Shown in pieces: positions 15,783 to 24,894 of a stretch of 64,000 nucleotides of DNA; positions within the stretch are counted from its first letter, which is position 1, and each line of letters opens with the position of its first letter. The position numbers and the translations under genes were made by a program. The notes under the pieces were generated by a model. It saw only the letters and a list, made by a program, of their open reading frames with translations. It had not been told where the DNA came from and did not search any database. Origin of the DNA: Halobacteriales archaeon QS_4_69_225 (lineage in GTDB: Archaea > Halobacteriota > Halobacteria > Halobacteriales > Haloarculaceae); contig PXRL01000007.1 of assembly GCA_003020965.1 (NCBI GenBank), positions 1-64,000 on the forward strand. Direction: 5' to 3'.

Positions 15783-15819
15783 AACATCCCGTGCCCCGGG
15801 TAGCGTGTGAGTCACACGT

Positions 15820-17049
15820 ATGGGTGTCGCAGACGGATATAGAACGCGGGCCGAGGGGCTCGTAGAGAACCCTTTCAACGGGTTACTCGTGTTCATCGGC
15901 CTCTATCTGGTCGCCGACCTGATCCTGAAGCTGAGTGGCGTCGACGTCGTCGTGAACGTTCCGGGGATGGGCGCGACCAAGATCATGGGCGGGGTCGAGC
16001 CGCTGGACAGCTTCCTGAGCAAGGTCATCAACGGTATCCTGAGAGGGCTCATCATCGGGCTGGCCGGAATCGGGCTCTCGATGACCTACAGCATCCTCGG
16101 ATTCGCGAACTTCGCTCACGGCGACTTCATCACCGTGGGTGCGTTCATGGGGGTGATGACGTCGTACATCGTCGCGGGCGTGGTCGGCGCCGCGACGTAC
16201 GACATCGGTACCCTGGCGCTCATGAAGGTCGAGGCGAGTCAGCTGGGACTGGCCATCACGGGGGGTCCGCTGGCCTTCGCGGCCATCGTGCTCGGACTGC
16301 TCATCGCCGGCGTCGGGACCGTCGGCGTCGTTTTGCTCGTCGACCGGCTGGCGTTCGAACCCATCCGGGACCGCTCGAGCGTCTCGCTGCTGATCACCAG
16401 CATCGGCGTCGCGCTCGTCATCCGGTATCTCGTCAACTTCATCTGGGGCATCGAGAAGTTCTCCGCCAACTCCCCGGGTGACACGTGGGAACTCGCCATC
16501 CGCGGCAGCGAACCCGCAAACGGTTTACAGCGAGGCCCGTCCACGTGGGAATTCGTCATCACCGAACTGACCGGCAGTATCAGGGTCAACGCACACGATT
16601 TCACCCTGCTGATCATCGCGGTGTCGCTGATGCTCGGCGTCCACGTCCTGTTGCAGACCTCGAAACTAGGCAAGGCGATGCGCGCCATGGCCGACAACAA
16701 GGACCTCGCCCGCGTGACCGGCATCCCGACGGACCGTGTCATCCGGTTCACGTGGGTGCTCGGCGGGAGTCTCACCGGAGTCGCCGGCTACACCTGGGTG
16801 CTATGGTCGGGAACCTTCGGCTGGTACGACGGCTGGCTGTTCCTGCTGTTGGTGTTCGCCGCGGTCATCCTGGGCGGCATCGGGTCGATCTACGGCGCGA
16901 TGGCCGGCGGACTCATCATCGGGCTGGCACGTGACCTCTCGATAATCTTCATTCCGAGTGCGTTTGCGAAGGCATTCGCGTTCGCGCTGATGATTGTCGT
17001 GTTGGTCGTCAAGCCGTCCGGACTGTTCGCAGGGAGGACGACAGCATGA
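15820..17049 (+). CDS. livH: Branched-chain amino acid (or amide/urea) ABC transporter permease, LivH type
   Basis: A 409-residue inner-membrane permease. The LivH signature GLSMTYSILGFANFAHGDFI occurs at about residue 87, and the C-terminal half has MAGGLIIGLARDLS and several further helices. About eight to ten membrane segments are visible. It is longer than bacterial LivH because of an N-terminal extension and an extracytoplasmic loop between helices (around the SANSPGDTWELAIRG region). It overlaps livM by 4 bp (ATGA) and heads livH-livM-livG-livF. Haloarchaeal clusters of this type may import branched-chain amino acids, amides or urea; the substrate is not determined. Confidence 0.92.
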   Translation: MGVADGYRTRAEGLVENPFNGLLVFIGLYLVADLILKLSGVDVVVNVPGMGATKIMGGVEPLDSFLSKVINGILRGLIIGLAGIGLSMTYSILGFANFAHGDFITVGAFMGVMTSYIVAGVVGAATYDIGTLALMKVEASQLGLAITGGPLAFAAIVLGLLIAGVGTVGVVLLVDRLAFEPIRDRSSVSLLITSIGVALVIRYLVNFIWGIEKFSANSPGDTWELAIRGSEPANGLQRGPSTWEFVITELTGSIRVNAHDFTLLIIAVSLMLGVHVLLQTSKLGKAMRAMADNKDLARVTGIPTDRVIRFTWVLGGSLTGVAGYTWVLWSGTFGWYDGWLFLLLVFAAVILGGIGSIYGAMAGGLIIGLARDLSIIFIPSAFAKAFAFALMIVVLVVKPSGLFAGRTTA

Positions 17050-18410
17050 GCGTCGGCGACAGCGTTCCGGACCGCGTCTCCGCGGTCGGGAGCAGCGACC
17101 CGGCGAAGATCATCGGGCTGCTGGTCTTCATCTACGCGGTGTATCTGGTCGCCGGCAGCATCGCCGGGATCAACCCCGTGTCGAACCTGACGTCGCTGAC
17201 CAGGTGGATCGGCCTGTTCGCCATCGCCGCGCTCGCACTGAACCTCCACTGGGGGTACACGGGTCTGTTCAACATCGGCGTCATCGGATTCATGGGCGTC
17301 GGCGTCTACGTGGCGGCGATCGTCTCCAAGGACCCGGTGGCGGCCGGAGGCGGCGGTGCGGTCGGCGGGGCGACCGGCGGACTCGGGCTCCCGCTTCCGA
17401 TCGGCATGCTGGCCGGCGCGGTCGCGGCGGCGCTGTTCGGCCTGCTCGTCGCGCTGCCGGCGCTTCGGCTCCGGGCCGACTACCTCGCCATCGTCACCAT
17501 CGCCGTCAGCGAGATCTTCCGGCTGTCGGTCCGGAACGGAAACATCGCCTCGTTCGACGTCGGCGGCCTGTCCGTCGGGTTCGGCGGCGGCGACGGACTC
17601 CAGCTCGACTGGGGCAGCGAGGTCGAACTCCTCTTCGACGCCCTGCTGCTCGGCGGGGTCTACGACAGCCTCAGCGCGACGGCGGAGCGGCTGATCGGCA
17701 GTCCGGTCGCCGTCGACCGGATCGGATACGCGCTGATACTGCTCGCCTTCATGATAGGGTACTACGCGCTGCTGCGGCGGATCGGCAACTCGCCGTTCGG
17801 GCGCGTTCTGAAGGCCATCCGCGAGGACGAGGAGGCGACCAACTCCCTTGGCAAGGACACCGACCGGTTCAAGATCATCGTGTTCATGATCGGCTGCGGG
17901 CTGATGGGGCTGGTGGGGGTGCTCTGGTTCATGAACGCCGGGGGCGGCGGCGGTTCGGTCAACCCCACGCAGTTCCGCCCGGACACGACGTTCTACATCT
18001 GGGTGGCACTGATAATCGGCGGCGCCGGCTCCAACACCGGCAGCGTGATGGGCGGAGCGCTGTTCGCCGCCTTCCTCTACCGCGGGCCACGGTTCCTGCA
18101 GACCGTCATCGACAAGCTGACGGAGACGGACCTAGGTAGCTTCGCGCGACGGACCGGGTTCGGCGAGGCGATGGCGCCCATCGCCGGGAGCTTCGACCCC
18201 ATCCCGCTACTGCTCTATGCCGTCACCAAAATCCAGAGTCTCCAGCTGCTCATCATGGGGCTGGTCATCATCTACCTGATGCAGAACCGCCCGCAGGGGC
18301 TGCTCGGCCACCGGAAGGAGCAGGCCGCCGCCATCTCGCTGTCGCGGCCGGACCGCCGGTCCGACGGCGACCGCGCGGTCGCCGCCGACGGAGGTGCCGA
18401 GGATGAGTGA
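17046..18410 (+). CDS. livM: Branched-chain amino acid (or amide/urea) ABC transporter permease, LivM type
   Basis: A 454-residue membrane permease that pairs with LivH. Typical LivM elements are the paired-helix stretch ALALNLHWGYTGLFNIGVIG, LPALRLRADYLAIVTIAVSEI and the coupling segment FGRVLKAIREDEEATNSLGK that contacts the ATPases. Its hydrophilic C-terminus (after residue ~425) is rich in Arg/Asp. It overlaps livH by 4 bp and livG by 8 bp, showing tight translational coupling. Confidence 0.92.
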   Translation: MSVGDSVPDRVSAVGSSDPAKIIGLLVFIYAVYLVAGSIAGINPVSNLTSLTRWIGLFAIAALALNLHWGYTGLFNIGVIGFMGVGVYVAAIVSKDPVAAGGGGAVGGATGGLGLPLPIGMLAGAVAAALFGLLVALPALRLRADYLAIVTIAVSEIFRLSVRNGNIASFDVGGLSVGFGGGDGLQLDWGSEVELLFDALLLGGVYDSLSATAERLIGSPVAVDRIGYALILLAFMIGYYALLRRIGNSPFGRVLKAIREDEEATNSLGKDTDRFKIIVFMIGCGLMGLVGVLWFMNAGGGGGSVNPTQFRPDTTFYIWVALIIGGAGSNTGSVMGGALFAAFLYRGPRFLQTVIDKLTETDLGSFARRTGFGEAMAPIAGSFDPIPLLLYAVTKIQSLQLLIMGLVIIYLMQNRPQGLLGHRKEQAAAISLSRPDRRSDGDRAVAADGGAEDE

Positions 18411-19308
18411 CACGGACATCGACCCGCCGGAGGAGGCGGTCCAGGCGAACGTTCCCGAGGATGCCGACGTCGACTACGAGAAGGCCGAAACACAGGACTC
18501 GGCCGCCGAGGAGGCCGCAAAGCACGTCCCCCAGGCCATCCCGCTGCAGGTGGAGAACCTGAGCAAGCGGTTCGGCGGGCTGACGGCCGTCGACGGCGCC
18601 TCCTTCGAGGTCGAACAGGGGACTCTGACCGGGCTCATCGGTCCGAACGGCGCCGGCAAGTCGACGACGTTCAACTGCGTCACCGGCGTTCTCGAGCCGA
18701 CCGCCGGCACCGTCCGGTTCAACGGCGAGGACATCACCGGGCTCGCCCCCCACCAGATCGCCGACCGGGGGCTCGCCCGGACGTTCCAGATCGCCCGCGA
18801 ACTCGGCGAGATGACCGTCCTCGAGAACCTGATGCTGGCGCCGACCCACCAGCGCGGCGAGTCGCTGTGGCGGAGCGTCCTGCCGTTCACCCGCGGATCG
18901 GTCGTCGAGCAGGAAGAAGAGGTGCTCGAGGATGTCTGGGAGACCCTGGATTTCTTCGACATCGACCACCTCGCCGACGAGTACGCGGGCAACCTCTCGG
19001 GCGGCCAGCGGAAGCTGCTGGAGCTGGCGCGCGTGCTGTTGACCGATCCCGACGTGCTCCTGCTGGACGAGCCGTTCGCCGGCGTCAACCCGTCGCTGGA
19101 GGAGCGACTCTTGGAGCACCTCCACGAGCTCCGCGAACAGGGCTACACCTTCCTCATCGTCGAACACGACATGGACCTCATCATGGACAACTGCGAACGC
19201 GTCATCGTGATGCACCAAGGCAGCGTCCTCACCGAGGGGACGCCGGAAGACGTCAAGGCCGACGAGCGCGTCCTCGAGGCGTATCTCGGCGGGGAGGTCG
19301 AGACGTGA
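18403..19308 (+). CDS. livG: ABC transporter ATP-binding protein, LivG type
   Basis: A 301-residue ATPase subunit. After an acidic ~40-residue N-terminal extension (MSDTDIDPPEEAVQANVPED...), the ABC domain shows Walker A GPNGAGKST, signature LSGGQRKLLE and Walker B VLLLDEPFAG, and the LivG-specific C-terminal end ERVLEAYLGGEVE. The ATG at 18403 is preferred over a GTG three codons upstream. It overlaps livM and livF and energises uptake with LivF. Confidence 0.92.
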   Translation: MSDTDIDPPEEAVQANVPEDADVDYEKAETQDSAAEEAAKHVPQAIPLQVENLSKRFGGLTAVDGASFEVEQGTLTGLIGPNGAGKSTTFNCVTGVLEPTAGTVRFNGEDITGLAPHQIADRGLARTFQIARELGEMTVLENLMLAPTHQRGESLWRSVLPFTRGSVVEQEEEVLEDVWETLDFFDIDHLADEYAGNLSGGQRKLLELARVLLTDPDVLLLDEPFAGVNPSLEERLLEHLHELREQGYTFLIVEHDMDLIMDNCERVIVMHQGSVLTEGTPEDVKADERVLEAYLGGEVET

Positions 19309-20066
19309 GCGCCGAGACGGACGCCACGAGCGGCGCCGCCACCGAGATCGACCGGTGGTCGGACGCGCTGCTGCAGGTGCGAAACCTCGACGCCGGCTAC
19401 GGCGACCTCCAGATCCTCACCGACGTCGACCTCGACGTCCGGGACGACGAGTACGTCACCATCGTCGGCCCGAACGGCGCCGGCAAGTCGACGGTGATGA
19501 AGTCCGTCTTCGGGCTCACCTCCCACATGGGCGGGACGGTGACGTTCGACGACGCGGACATCACCGGGATGCCGCCCGACGAGATCATCTACGAGGGGCT
19601 CGGTTACGTCCCGCAGAATCAGAACATCTTCGACTCGCTGTCGGTTCGGGAGAACCTCGAGATGGGCGCGTACATCCTCGACGAGGTGCCGGACGACGCC
19701 CTCGAGGAGGTGTTCCGGCGGTTTCCCATCCTCGAAGAGCGGGAAAACCAGACGGCCGGCACCATGAGCGGCGGCCAGCGACAGATGCTCGCGATGGGGC
19801 GGGCGCTGATGCTGTCGCCCGACATGCTGCTGCTCGACGAGCCGTCGGCGGGGCTGGCGCCGGACCTCGTCGACGAGATGTTCGAGAAGGTCGACGAGAT
19901 CAACGACTCCGGGACGGCCATCCTGATGGTCGAGCAGAACGCCAAGGAGGCGCTGCGGCGCTGCGACCGCGGCTACGTTCTCGTCGACGGTCAGAACCGC
20001 TACGAGGACAGCGGAATCGCCCTGCTGGACGACGAGCAGGTCAGACGCGACTTCCTCGGCGGCTGA
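19305..20066 (+). CDS. livF: ABC transporter ATP-binding protein, LivF type
   Basis: A 253-residue ATPase subunit starting with GTG that overlaps the livG stop by 4 bp. Walker A is GPNGAGKST, the signature MSGGQRQMLAMGRALM, Walker B MLLLDEPSAGLAP and the switch His-equivalent region MVEQNAKEAL, as in LivF. It closes the operon. Its binding-protein partner is probably the convergent gene at 20392-21738. Confidence 0.92.
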   Translation: MSAETDATSGAATEIDRWSDALLQVRNLDAGYGDLQILTDVDLDVRDDEYVTIVGPNGAGKSTVMKSVFGLTSHMGGTVTFDDADITGMPPDEIIYEGLGYVPQNQNIFDSLSVRENLEMGAYILDEVPDDALEEVFRRFPILEERENQTAGTMSGGQRQMLAMGRALMLSPDMLLLDEPSAGLAPDLVDEMFEKVDEINDSGTAILMVEQNAKEALRRCDRGYVLVDGQNRYEDSGIALLDDEQVRRDFLGG

Positions 20067-20391: not shown

Positions 20392-21738
20392 TCAGCTGAT
20401 GTCGAGGTCGGCCTCGTTGACCTCGAGGGCGGCCATCTCGGCGGCCTGCACCATCGGTCCGCCCACGGACGCGAGGTTACCGGAAGTCGGCAGCAGGATA
20501 CCGAGTTCGACCGTCCGACCCGGGTCGCTGCCGGGCATCTCGTCGGCCGAGGAGCCGGAGCCGCCGGGGTTGTCGCCTTCGAAGGACTGGGTGTCGGCGA
20601 CCGAGGTGGACTGGTTGTCCTGGCCGTCGAACTCCCAGATGTCGTAGGCTGCGTTGGCGGGGTCGCCCGCCTCGTTGAAGTTGACGTCCGAGGAGGCGCC
20701 CTGGTAGTTGACCTGCTCGCCGTTGGCGGCCAGCTCGACGCCCTCGACGAAGTTGTCGGGGGTGATCTCCTCTCCGGGCGGGTTGGCGACGTTGCGCATC
20801 TGGTCGCGGACGGCCGTTCCGTCGTTTTCGCCGGCGGCGACGTTCGCCAGGATGAGAACGGCGGCCGAGTCGTACGACTGCGAGGTGAACACGCCGGGAG
20901 ACTCGCCGTACCGCTCCTCGAACGCCGCCGTGAACGCCTCCTGTGCCGGCCCGCCCGCGGCGGGCGCGGTGCCGGTGACGTTCGCCATGTCGTTGCCGAC
21001 CTGGCTCGGCAGCGCGCCGTCGCGCAGGCCGTCCGGGATCAGGATCTCCTCGTTGCCGTCGCTGGCGGAGTAGTAGTCCCGGAAGAGCTGTATGCCGTCC
21101 TCCGGGTAGCCGACGATGAACAGCCCGTCGGGGTCGCCGCTGAGCGCCGACTGGATCGTGGACCCGTACGACGACCCGCCCTGTGCGTAGGCGTTCTGAC
21201 TGAGCACCTCGCCGTCGAACTGCTCGGCGAACTGGTTGTTGAGCTGCTGGCCGTAGTCGTTGTCGACGTACAGCGTCGAAACCGACGAGGCTCCGAGCCG
21301 CTCGGACATGACCTGGGCGTCGACGGTGCCCTGGAGGATGTCGGACGGCGCCGTTCGGAAAATGTAGTCGTCGTCCTCGAGGTTGGTCACCGAGATGGCG
21401 GTCGAAGACGGCGAGCAGCCGACGGCCTCGTTGTCCGCGAGAACGCCGTCGGAAACGGGGACGTTGACGCCGGAGGAGGCGGTTCCACAGACCATCGGGA
21501 TGCCCTGACTGACGAGCCGCTGTGCGGCCTCGGTGCCGGCGTTCGAGCGGGTCTCGGTGTCCTCGACGGTCGGGTTGATCTCGAGGCCGCTGCCGCCACC
21601 GTTGCCGGTGTCGGTATCGTCGCCGCCGTTACCCCCGCCGTTACCCCCACCGTTACCGAAGCACCCGGCGAGACCGAACGAGACCCCGGCGATTCCGATA
21701 CCCTTCACCATGTCGCGCCGTCGCACGTCACGTGACAT
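20392..21738 (-). CDS. LivJ-type substrate-binding lipoprotein with circularly permuted order
   Basis: A 448-residue periplasmic-binding (Peripla_BP_6/ANF-receptor) lipoprotein. Residues 1-26 are a Tat/lipobox signal (MSRDVRRRDMVKGIGIAGVS...GLAGC), followed by a Gly/Asn/Asp spacer to ~51. The core then begins at LEINPTVEDTET, which in ordinary family members is the second strand, and runs through AQRLVSQGIPMVCGTASSG, FRTAPSDILQG, FIVGYPEDGIQLFRDYY and VFTSQSYDSAAVLILANVAAG to YDIWEFDG. A Gly/Ser linker and EMPGSDPG precede RTVELGILLPTSGNLASVGG at residues ~408-427, the motif that normally opens the mature protein. It should serve the livHMGF transporter encoded convergently. Confidence 0.85.
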   Translation of the reverse strand: MSRDVRRRDMVKGIGIAGVSFGLAGCFGNGGGNGGGNGGDDTDTGNGGGSGLEINPTVEDTETRSNAGTEAAQRLVSQGIPMVCGTASSGVNVPVSDGVLADNEAVGCSPSSTAISVTNLEDDDYIFRTAPSDILQGTVDAQVMSERLGASSVSTLYVDNDYGQQLNNQFAEQFDGEVLSQNAYAQGGSSYGSTIQSALSGDPDGLFIVGYPEDGIQLFRDYYSASDGNEEILIPDGLRDGALPSQVGNDMANVTGTAPAAGGPAQEAFTAAFEERYGESPGVFTSQSYDSAAVLILANVAAGENDGTAVRDQMRNVANPPGEEITPDNFVEGVELAANGEQVNYQGASSDVNFNEAGDPANAAYDIWEFDGQDNQSTSVADTQSFEGDNPGGSGSSADEMPGSDPGRTVELGILLPTSGNLASVGGPMVQAAEMAALEVNEADLDIS

Positions 21739-21818
21739 ACCCAACGGCACCATCCCGTGGTATATAAAATCTGGCCACGGAATGGCCGACGGACCGGACG
21801 ACCGTGATAACCGACCAG

Positions 21819-22688: not shown

Positions 22689-22991
22689 TCAGACGCGGTC
22701 CGCGAGGTCGATCTCCCACATGCCGTTTTCGCGCATCGCCCCGCCGACGGCGACGTGGAACTCGGCGATGTCTTCGAACTCCGAGCGGTCGACGGCCTCG
22801 AGGATGTCGGCGACGCTGACGACCTCCTCGTGGTTGAGTCGGACGGGCTCGTCGCCGTGGGCCTCGATGAACTCCGCCTTCGTCAGCGGGAAGTCCGCCT
22901 CCTCGTCGAGCTTCTTCGCGAGGATCGCCTGTCCGTACTTGCGCATCCCCTCGGAGCCGTCCTCGCCGTCGGGGTCGTGCGGCCACTCCAT
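22689..22991 (-). CDS. Conserved haloarchaeal protein (DUF5785-like)
   Basis: A 100-residue soluble acidic protein starting MEWPHDPDGEDGSEGMRKYG. The sequence (LTKAEFIEAHGDEPVRLNHE, then VVSVADILEAVDRSEFEDI) matches what I remember as the haloarchaea-restricted DUF5785 family in full length and order. No catalytic motif is visible and the function is unknown. It is flanked by the DUF3179 pseudogene downstream and a divergent HTH gene upstream. Confidence 0.8.
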   Translation of the reverse strand: MEWPHDPDGEDGSEGMRKYGQAILAKKLDEEADFPLTKAEFIEAHGDEPVRLNHEEVVSVADILEAVDRSEFEDIAEFHVAVGGAMRENGMWEIDLADRV

Positions 22992-23066
22992 GTCCGCCGT
23001 CGGTAGGCCGGCATCAAAGCGCTTGCGACCCCGGCGTCGGGCGACGACCTTTGGAAGGTTTTGTCA

Positions 23067-23080
23067 TAATCTTAAATCCC
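23067..23080 (+). promoter_or_regulatory. Probable TATA region of the HTH-10 gene
   Basis: ATAATCTTAAATCC lies about 35-47 bp upstream of the ATG at 23114, in the only AT-rich patch of the divergent intergenic region (22992-23113). Confidence 0.45.
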
Positions 23081-23113
23081 CGTTGCACCCCGGTATCGTA
23101 CAGACCCTACACG

Positions 23114-23764
23114 ATGAAGTACCTGAAGCTCACCCTCTCGCCGACGGATCGGGCCGTCCATCCCATCGACCGGTTTCTCGCCGGCCACGACGGGATCACG
23201 CGGGAGGCCCTGTTGCACGTCGACGCGCGGGCCGACGGGACGACGGTGCTGCTCTACAGGGTGACCGGCGACGGAGCGAGGTTCGCCGACGCGCTCGAAA
23301 AGCGAGCGGGGGTGGTCGACCACGACGTGGTCGACCTCGCCGGCAACGGCTACCACGCCTTCGTCCAGGCGGACGCCGTCGACGACGGCGGGGTACTGCT
23401 GGAGATCGCCCGGGACAACGCGCTCATCGTCGACACGCCGCTGGAGTTCACCGACGAGGGGCTGCGGGCGACGCTCGTCGGCACCCACGAGAACCTCCGG
23501 GCGGCGCTGGGGGCCGTCCCCGACGGCCTCGACTTTTCGGTCGACAACGCCGGTACGTACGTCCCCGGCGGCGAGGACCTGTTGTCGCCGTTGACGGACC
23601 GCCAGCTCGAGGTGTTCGAGACGGCCGTCGAGGAGGGGTACTACGACGTCCCACGGCAGGCGACGCACAAGGACATCGCCGACAACCTCGGCTGTGCGCC
23701 GTCGACCGTCGACGAACACCTCCGGAAGGCCGAATCCCGGGTCGTCACTGGCCTCATTCAATAA
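23114..23764 (+). CDS. HTH-10 (bacterio-opsin activator-like) transcription regulator
   Basis: A 216-residue regulator. Its N-terminal ~150 residues (MKYLKLTLSPTDRAVHPIDR...) form the beta-rich sensor region found in many Bat-related haloarchaeal regulators. The last ~55 are a complete HTH-10 domain: LTDRQLEVFETAVEEGYYDV, PRQATHKDIADNLG and APSTVDEHLRKAESRVV. It has no receiver, PAS or GAF domain, so the N-terminal part probably binds the ligand. The ATG at 23114 sits at the normal distance from the TATA region; upstream codons are not protein-like. It likely controls unlinked genes. Confidence 0.9.
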   Translation: MKYLKLTLSPTDRAVHPIDRFLAGHDGITREALLHVDARADGTTVLLYRVTGDGARFADALEKRAGVVDHDVVDLAGNGYHAFVQADAVDDGGVLLEIARDNALIVDTPLEFTDEGLRATLVGTHENLRAALGAVPDGLDFSVDNAGTYVPGGEDLLSPLTDRQLEVFETAVEEGYYDVPRQATHKDIADNLGCAPSTVDEHLRKAESRVVTGLIQ

Positions 23765-23838: not shown

Positions 23839-24894
23839 GTGTACTGGGGACAGATTGCACTGTCTCTTGCGGCCGCGCTCGCGGGAGGGACGTATCTTCA
23901 CGATCAAGGATATCGGTCAGCGGTTGCCGTCCTTGCTGGCATTATCATATATATTGCCGTCCGATGGGGAATCGCCTGGGCGTTCCGGACTAAATTCTGG
24001 TACCGCCACGGTGGGAATCGGAATAATGGCGATTCATGCCCGAACTGTGGACAGTACATCTATCGATTCGAGCGCGATTGGATTCTGCGCTGTGGCCGCT
24101 GTGGATGGACCGCAGGATGGCCCGTACTCCGGTGGTTCACGAAGTCAGTTCCGTCGCAACAGTTGCGCCGAACTGCCGCGGGACCACGGCTCCTGTTGGT
24201 GGTGCTCGCAGTTTCGGGGCTCTTCGCACCTGCCGCGGTCTCTGGCGCCGTCTCCGATGCTACGGATCGAGTCACCCCTCTGGTGGATTCAATTGAATCT
24301 GCAGATGAAACGACTCCAACTGAGCAAGAATCTGAGGAAAATAAAAGACAGGGCGAAGACCGACAGGACGGGGTAAATCCTGAGAGACAGAATAAAAGTC
24401 AACGAAGCGGTGAGGGTGGTGGAACACGGGCGGAGTTGAATCGGGAGGACACTTCGAACGGGTTCGACGAACGGAGAGTCGAGCGGCTGGTTCTCGAAAG
24501 CATCAACGAGATTAGAACCGAACGTGGAAAGCGATCTCTACGGCCATTAGCTGTCGATTCTCCCGTCCGAACTGCAGCACGAGGTCACTCCGAGGATATG
24601 GCGACAAGAGAATACTTTTCACACACCTCACCCGACGGAGAAGGCATTGGAAAGCGGTACAGTTGCACTCCAGGTGAAAATATTGCGATGACTTATATCG
24701 ACAGGCGTGTTAGAACCGAGAACGGGACGGAAGTATACGATTCCGAAGCAGAATTGGCCGAGGGACTGGTCCGACTGTGGATGAACTCAGACCCACACAG
24801 AAAGAATCTACTACGTGAATACGAGTCGTCTGGTGTCGGTGTGTACATCACCGAAAGTCAGGAGGTCTACGCGACTCACGTATTCTGCCGGTGA
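23839..24894 (+). CDS. Membrane protein with zinc ribbon and extracellular CAP/SCP domain
   Basis: A 351-residue protein in sequence noticeably less GC-rich than its neighbours. Two hydrophobic helices lie near the N-terminus (ALSLAAALAGGTYL, AVLAGIIIYIAVRWGIAWAF). A zinc ribbon follows (CPNCGQYIYRFERDWILRCG, then RCG) and a third helix at about 115-138 (LLLVVLAVSGLFAPAAVSG). After a ~70-residue hydrophilic Glu/Arg/Ser linker comes a CAP/PR-1 domain (residues ~210-351) with INEIRTERGKRSLRPL, ARGHSEDMATREYFSHTSP, GENIAM and LVRLWMNSDPHRKNLL. The CAP domain is probably outside the cell and the ribbon inside. The GTG at 23839 gives the complete first helix. Base composition suggests recent acquisition. 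Confidence 0.85.
   Translation: MYWGQIALSLAAALAGGTYLHDQGYRSAVAVLAGIIIYIAVRWGIAWAFRTKFWYRHGGNRNNGDSCPNCGQYIYRFERDWILRCGRCGWTAGWPVLRWFTKSVPSQQLRRTAAGPRLLLVVLAVSGLFAPAAVSGAVSDATDRVTPLVDSIESADETTPTEQESEENKRQGEDRQDGVNPERQNKSQRSGEGGGTRAELNREDTSNGFDERRVERLVLESINEIRTERGKRSLRPLAVDSPVRTAARGHSEDMATREYFSHTSPDGEGIGKRYSCTPGENIAMTYIDRRVRTENGTEVYDSEAELAEGLVRLWMNSDPHRKNLLREYESSGVGVYITESQEVYATHVFCR

Follow-up and report, generated by a model that had tools for sequence, protein, structure and literature searches.

The window analysed here is a 64,000-nucleotide stretch of Halobacteriales archaeon QS_4_69_225 (contig PXRL01000007.1, positions 1 to 64,000), which carries a gene for a circularly permuted LivJ-type substrate-binding lipoprotein. 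Our data support reading this gene as a natural circular permutation of an ABC (ATP-binding cassette)-importer binding protein, joined by a linker. The best overall explanation, to which we give a probability of about 80%, is that it encodes the binding lipoprotein of a Liv importer, with an ordinary type I fold and a chain that has been rotated twice. We define segment A as canonical strand 1 and helix 1, segment B as strand 2 onward into lobe II, and segment C as the remainder of the chain. The canonical order starts at strand 1 (A-B-C), whereas segment A is C-terminal in the window protein (B-C-A), whose parts are as follows.

20392..21738, minus strand: circularly permuted LivJ-type substrate-binding lipoprotein gene, 448 residues in the order signal-B-C-A, with ATG at 21738 and TGA at 20394-20392.
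21761..21769, minus strand: TATA-like element TTTTATATA, about 27 nucleotides upstream of the ATG at 21738, a putative promoter.
21661..21738, minus strand: RR-containing signal peptide with lipobox LAGC and Cys 26, read from the sequence.
21586..21660, minus strand: Gly/Asn/Asp-rich linker, residues 27-51, joining the lipobox to the fold, read from the sequence.
21139..21585, minus strand: segment B, residues 52-200, which starts at canonical strand 2 and runs into lobe II, placed from relatives' loci and the structure model.
20578..21138, minus strand: segment C, residues 201-387, the remainder of the canonical chain, placed from relatives' loci and the alignment of the model with LivK.
20521..20577, minus strand: C-A linker GDNPGGSGSSADEMPGSDP, residues 388-406, of a form in common with C-A-B relatives of the main clade.
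20395..20520, minus strand: segment A, residues 407-448, holding strand 1 and helix 1 of the canonical fold at the C-terminus, placed from sequence, the reordering test and the predicted strand and helix.

The Peripla_BP_6 profile PF13458 matches the window protein at 118.1 bits (cut-off 31.7, E 8.9e-34), with residues 47-317 aligned to profile positions 36-311. Hence the start of the profile is missing at the N-terminus, and the mature fold begins at the strand after strand-helix 1, as the first-pass annotation of this gene had proposed. The native opening of the family is found at residues 407-447 (GRTVELGILLPTSGNLASVGG...LDI), which bears out the same annotation's placement of this strand-helix at the C-terminus. 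When the protein was rewritten in A-B-C order it covered profile positions 1-311 unbroken and the score rose to 127.0 bits (+8.9). The rewrite also raised the matches to PDB 4gnr (61.2 to 72.1 bits, from 4gnr residue 6) and PDB 3td9 (55.3 to 63.1 bits), although not every PDB chain gained, 2lbp remaining at 31 bits and 1usg dropping off the list. A Haloferax protein of C-A-B order put into A-B-C gave 104.5 in place of 90.3 bits with PF13458. The Pfam families matched by the window protein are Peripla_BP_6, ANF_receptor and Peripla_BP_5; profile tools score the permuted genes as ordinary LivJ-type and do not flag the order. The predicted structure shows a two-lobed fold matching the solved LivK and LivJ proteins and aligns with LivK 3td9 starting at chain residue 56. 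In this model segment A appears after segment C as a predicted strand (365-372) and helix (376-398). These predictions support a putative placement of the C-terminal strand as strand 1 of lobe I.

All three cyclic orders occur in the family. Among 122 distinct open reading frames, drawn from 148 loci by having B and C within one frame, 39 are A-B-C, 78 C-A-B and 5 B-C-A. The C-A-B order takes in records of Haloferax, Halorubrum, Haloplanus, Halobellus, Halorussus, Haloprofundus and Haloglomus strains, and the C-A row typical of it is present in 47 of 146 family genomes (the order being sequence-checked in the fetched loci only). Within the main clade, C-A-B and B-C-A proteins share about 57-77% identity per segment. 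The N-terminus of C-A-B proteins opens at a strand resembling [PV][DE]xLxVIGYP and their C-terminus lies 1-4 residues past the conserved helix end; these positions place the cut in one loop, which is assigned to lobe II by alignment with LivK and by what is known of the fold. A lipobox-like motif stands ahead of the fold in 77 of the 78 C-A-B rows, the exception apparently being L096, with none before segment C. Among the 39 A-B-C rows the motif is absent in four, and in four the B-C gap exceeds 3 residues. Linkers between C and A vary between C-A-B groups, and the GDNPGGSGSSADEMPGSDP-type joint is common to the window gene and its main-clade C-A-B relatives. The EMPGSDPG stretch had been taken for a lipobox linker displaced along with segment A; this does not hold, since it belongs to that shared C-A joint and the Gly-rich lipobox linker has not left its normal site. 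A separate clade of C-A-B genes, C-A-B2, comprises L109-L111, L113-L115 and L118; its C-A linker is of a distinct type, and its members come from the window's genus and from other parts of the order. In a Haloplanus metagenome record (L071:2890-3216) a C-A-B-type gene starts normally and then runs into unrelated sequence and a stop within segment C, being truncated, interrupted or chimeric.

The B-C-A order, checked on the loci, is found in 5 of the 146 family genomes, namely the window's own, G127, G133, G139 and G140, and this recurrence excludes chance. The other four genomes carry proteins with 66 to 98% identity to the window protein. Matched by position, the B-C-A loci L035, L036 and L054 belong to records PXRZ01, JAHENN01 and JAHENO01, respectively. 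L035 and L036, the two nearest relatives, conserve both the TATA-like element and the start codon. Nonsynonymous and synonymous divergence (Ka/Ks) between the window gene and L036 was 0.064/0.216 over the full gene and 0.029/0.194 within segment A, and 0.062/0.461 for the second B-C-A pair, L054 and L009. The window gene is under purifying selection, segment A included.

Trees were built after removal of L044 (unread stretches) and of identical reading frames; the rows dropped also include L071, in which segment B is missing. The permuted rows separate from A-B-C at 99/100 in a tree of 59 rows, where B-C-A appears twice inside C-A-B, the window group beside C-A-B row L038 (100/99) and L009/L054 beside another C-A-B group (96/94). 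A single B-C-A clade was rejected (p 5e-6 in the 59-row set; p 0.017 in a 97-row set less 8 long branches), as was a single C-A-B clade (p 2e-4, 59-row set), and trees of segment B or segment C alone likewise require two B-C-A placements. The larger tree holds 97 of the 122 rows after thinning of near-copies; its 7 outgroup rows, drawn from elsewhere in the phylum, are uniformly A-B-C. Here the distribution of orders requires 6 changes, and even C-A-B falls into separate parts. Two origins of C-A-B and two of B-C-A are firm under parsimony from these sequence trees, although counts alone cannot separate gains from losses; more are likely. Given that B-C-A is nested in C-A-B, the window gene has probably been rotated a second time, starting from an order that was itself permuted. 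The earlier proposal of a natural circular permutation closed by a linker therefore stands as to permutation and linker, but a direct opening of the canonical chain is improbable, because the gene is nested in a large C-A-B clade; its linker is inherited from that clade.

The three orders also share a genomic slot. Genes for Liv/Urt-type permeases and ATPases adjoin the window gene, together with an upstream DUF5785 gene:

19305..20066, plus strand: livF-like ATPase gene, convergent with the binding protein gene; LivF model 215.8 bits, cut-off 441.
18394..19308, plus strand: livG-like ATPase gene; 243.6 bits, cut-off 362.
17046..18410, plus strand: livM-like permease gene; 77.5 bits, cut-off 366.
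15811..17049, plus strand: livH-like permease gene, start uncertain; 111.9 bits, cut-off 379.
22689..22991, minus strand: DUF5785 gene, upstream neighbour of the slot; PF19098, E 4e-45.

The LivH, LivM, LivG and LivF models match the importer genes best, with urea-type models close behind; all scores lie under the curated NCBIfam cut-offs, and we therefore assign no substrate to the importer. Neighbours were surveyed in loci L001-L096, the divergent C-A-B groups 2-5 lying mostly outside this set. The binding protein gene converges on livF, and on livG wherever the flank extends far enough, in 16 of 16 loci labelled A-B-C, 5 of 5 labelled B-C-A and most C-A-B loci. No livF was found in the available flank of eight loci (L002, L042, L044, L071, L072, L075, L092 and L093), and livM is seen solely in loci with longer flanks, all C-A-B or B-C-A. 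The DUF5785 gene is a frequent neighbour of the importer slot across haloarchaea, lying upstream in 38 loci (26 C-A-B, 6 A-B-C, 5 B-C-A and the broken L071); the five B-C-A loci represent three genomes, every one of the window's group. A-B-C, C-A-B and B-C-A are hence all found beside the same genes, livF-livG and DUF5785, and the window protein most likely acts outside the cell as lipid-anchored receptor for the Liv-type importer encoded next to it, its anchor having moved.

These observations suggest a two-step model. In the first step an ancestral A-B-C gene would have become C-A-B, a linker closing its former ends while a helix-strand loop of lobe II was opened to give new ones. In the second, C-A-B would have become B-C-A, with the lobe II loop re-sealed and a new cut made in lobe I after helix 1 and ahead of strand 2, the C-A linker being carried over from the C-A-B ancestor. 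The fold itself, an ordinary two-lobed type I fold, would be left unchanged by rotation. Since the signal peptide and lipobox come first at each step, what would change is where the lipid anchor meets the fold. We infer that strand 1 inserts canonically, which lobe bears the anchor, and that the window protein binds and delivers substrate. Each step may well have run via tandem duplication and trimming, the likeliest route on our analysis; this is favoured by a short terminal overlap, with P[DE] at both ends, in 12 of the 78 C-A-B rows. The overlap falls mostly within one genus group and therefore reflects few events. We lean slightly towards the wider view that haloarchaeal Liv-type genes rotate recurrently in place, from A-B-C to C-A-B at least twice and from C-A-B to B-C-A twice, in one slot and at the same lobe II loop, through selection on anchor position or an easy recombination route.

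Several results weigh against the doubly rotated Liv receptor. The five B-C-A genomes are all known from fragmented assemblies, of 28 to about 330 contigs and 57 to 89% completeness, and at least three are metagenome bins, as would suit a misassembly or a rearranged pseudogene. Such an artefact is nevertheless extremely improbable: the order recurs in five genomes and in two lineages with differing segment A ends, the window group keeps its open frames, TATA-like element and neighbours, purifying selection extends to segment A, and similarly named bin records hold both B-C-A (L036, L054) and C-A-B (L042) genes. As far as other assemblies can address it, misassembly, which the first-pass annotation had named as a possible undoing of its claim, fails. 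The structural support is uneven, with model residues of about 41-90 at low confidence (block means 44-58), one of five models averaging 49.8, and best Foldseek template-modelling (TM) scores of 0.58/0.66. The second B-C-A lineage shows no DUF5785 gene in the available flank, although many other loci are too short to show one. Its link to a C-A-B sister drops from 96/94 to 91/81 in the 97-row tree, and the tree of segment C alone does not resolve the second pair within C-A-B1. It is doubtful, though worth real weight, that C-A-B had a single origin, with several A-B-C lineages produced by reversal or by recombining paralogues. All C-A-B groups share the lobe II loop, and the segment B tree puts A-B-C row L031 inside C-A-B2 (99/69). 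With the 8 long branches among the 97 rows also left out of the segment trees and of the tests that pair or join C-A-B groups, C-A-B3+4+5 as a clade was not rejected (p 0.594, the tree found being better by 5.65 log units), and C-A-B1 with C-A-B3-5 was rejected at the borderline (p 0.0498). One clade of all permuted rows was rejected, however (p 3e-4), as were C-A-B1 with C-A-B2 (p 7e-4) and C-A-B2 with C-A-B3-5 (p 0.005), and both segment trees group C-A-B2 with L031, away from C-A-B1. These p-values flatter the result because the groups were named after the tree was seen. The trees point to at least two origins of C-A-B unless A-B-C was regained.

Two other routes would reach the same orders without a second rotation or through separate half-genes. 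A long-lived ancestral tandem dimer (A-B-C-linker-A-B-C), trimmed lineage by lineage to C-A-B or B-C-A, would account for the nearly identical ends across all C-A-B groups and for a B-C joint of canonical length in both B-C-A lineages, which a fresh fusion in our two-step model need not give. We regard it as unlikely, because such a dimer must survive several splits and be trimmed repeatedly to the same C-A-B ends, and none was found among the loci examined. The same search bears on duplication with trimming, as no best reading frame of the 148 loci has a segment twice, past or unsampled intermediates being possible. Less likely again is a route of fission and fusion, in which the gene broke where segments meet and the two half-genes, each for a lipoprotein, afterwards rejoined in the opposite order. 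With the cuts placed in loops, separate halves might fold and pair, but no half-gene pair was found in loci L035-L096, where the sole partial gene is L071, and the terminal overlap fits duplication better. In loci L001-L071 each complete gene is one reading frame, and tandem half-genes, the other objection foreseen in the first-pass annotation, were absent from every relative examined. The 122-row set is uninformative here, because only reading frames containing both B and C were admitted to it.

Among known systems, the window protein resembles LivJ/LivK-type proteins (Peripla_BP_6, PF13458; type I, cluster B; 3td9 and 4gnr) in sequence family, predicted fold and adjoining Liv-type importer genes, but it has strand 1 and helix 1 C-terminal, and its C-A-B relatives have their ends in the lobe II loop. 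Tp0684 (TpMglB-2) of Treponema is a solved circularly permuted type I binding lipoprotein, for which the authors propose the names 'Type Ic' and 'Cluster Bc' and suggest membrane tethering as a possible reason for permutation (PMC4990184). The window protein is likewise a naturally permuted, lipid-anchored type I binding protein. The first three N-lobe strands have moved in Tp0684, whereas one strand-helix has moved in the window protein and the cut is in lobe II in C-A-B; Tp0684 is a relative of sugar-binding MglB, a family that the window protein does not match, and, unlike Tp0684, the haloarchaeal family shows three orders (PMC4990184). Tp0684 is thus one permuted binding-protein lineage already known, from which the haloarchaeal cut sites and sequence family differ. 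Permutation by duplication and trimming has been proposed for DNA methyltransferases and saposin/swaposin (PMC3320104). The window family shares with these the same segments in cyclically permuted order. Duplicated intermediates are documented there for methyltransferases (PMC3320104), whereas none was found in the window family, whose orders have chromosomal neighbours in common. Among the matches listed from one open-access library, no title or opening of an abstract described permuted haloarchaeal Liv proteins.

Natural circular permutations have mostly been inferred from distant protein pairs. Here three cyclic orders of one protein, with what are probably two nested second rotations, lie beside the same genes in related archaea and allow direct tests of origin and effect. 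Cultured genera such as Haloferax and Halorubrum carry C-A-B, which opens such tests there. If anchor position does drive rotation, the family would test how a tethered binding protein meets its transporter. The window gene provides a natural test case of how protein ends move in evolution.

Elsewhere in the window's genome, locus L002 on contig 15 encodes another LivJ-like binding protein, only distantly related (31% identity), whose order reads as canonical, with a livH-like match in the locus. Near the importer slot, window positions 23051-23764 encode a regulator-like protein with HVO_0513_N and HTH_10 domains, and positions 23839-24894 encode a CAP (cysteine-rich secretory protein) domain protein with a CxxC...CxxC stretch ahead of the domain.
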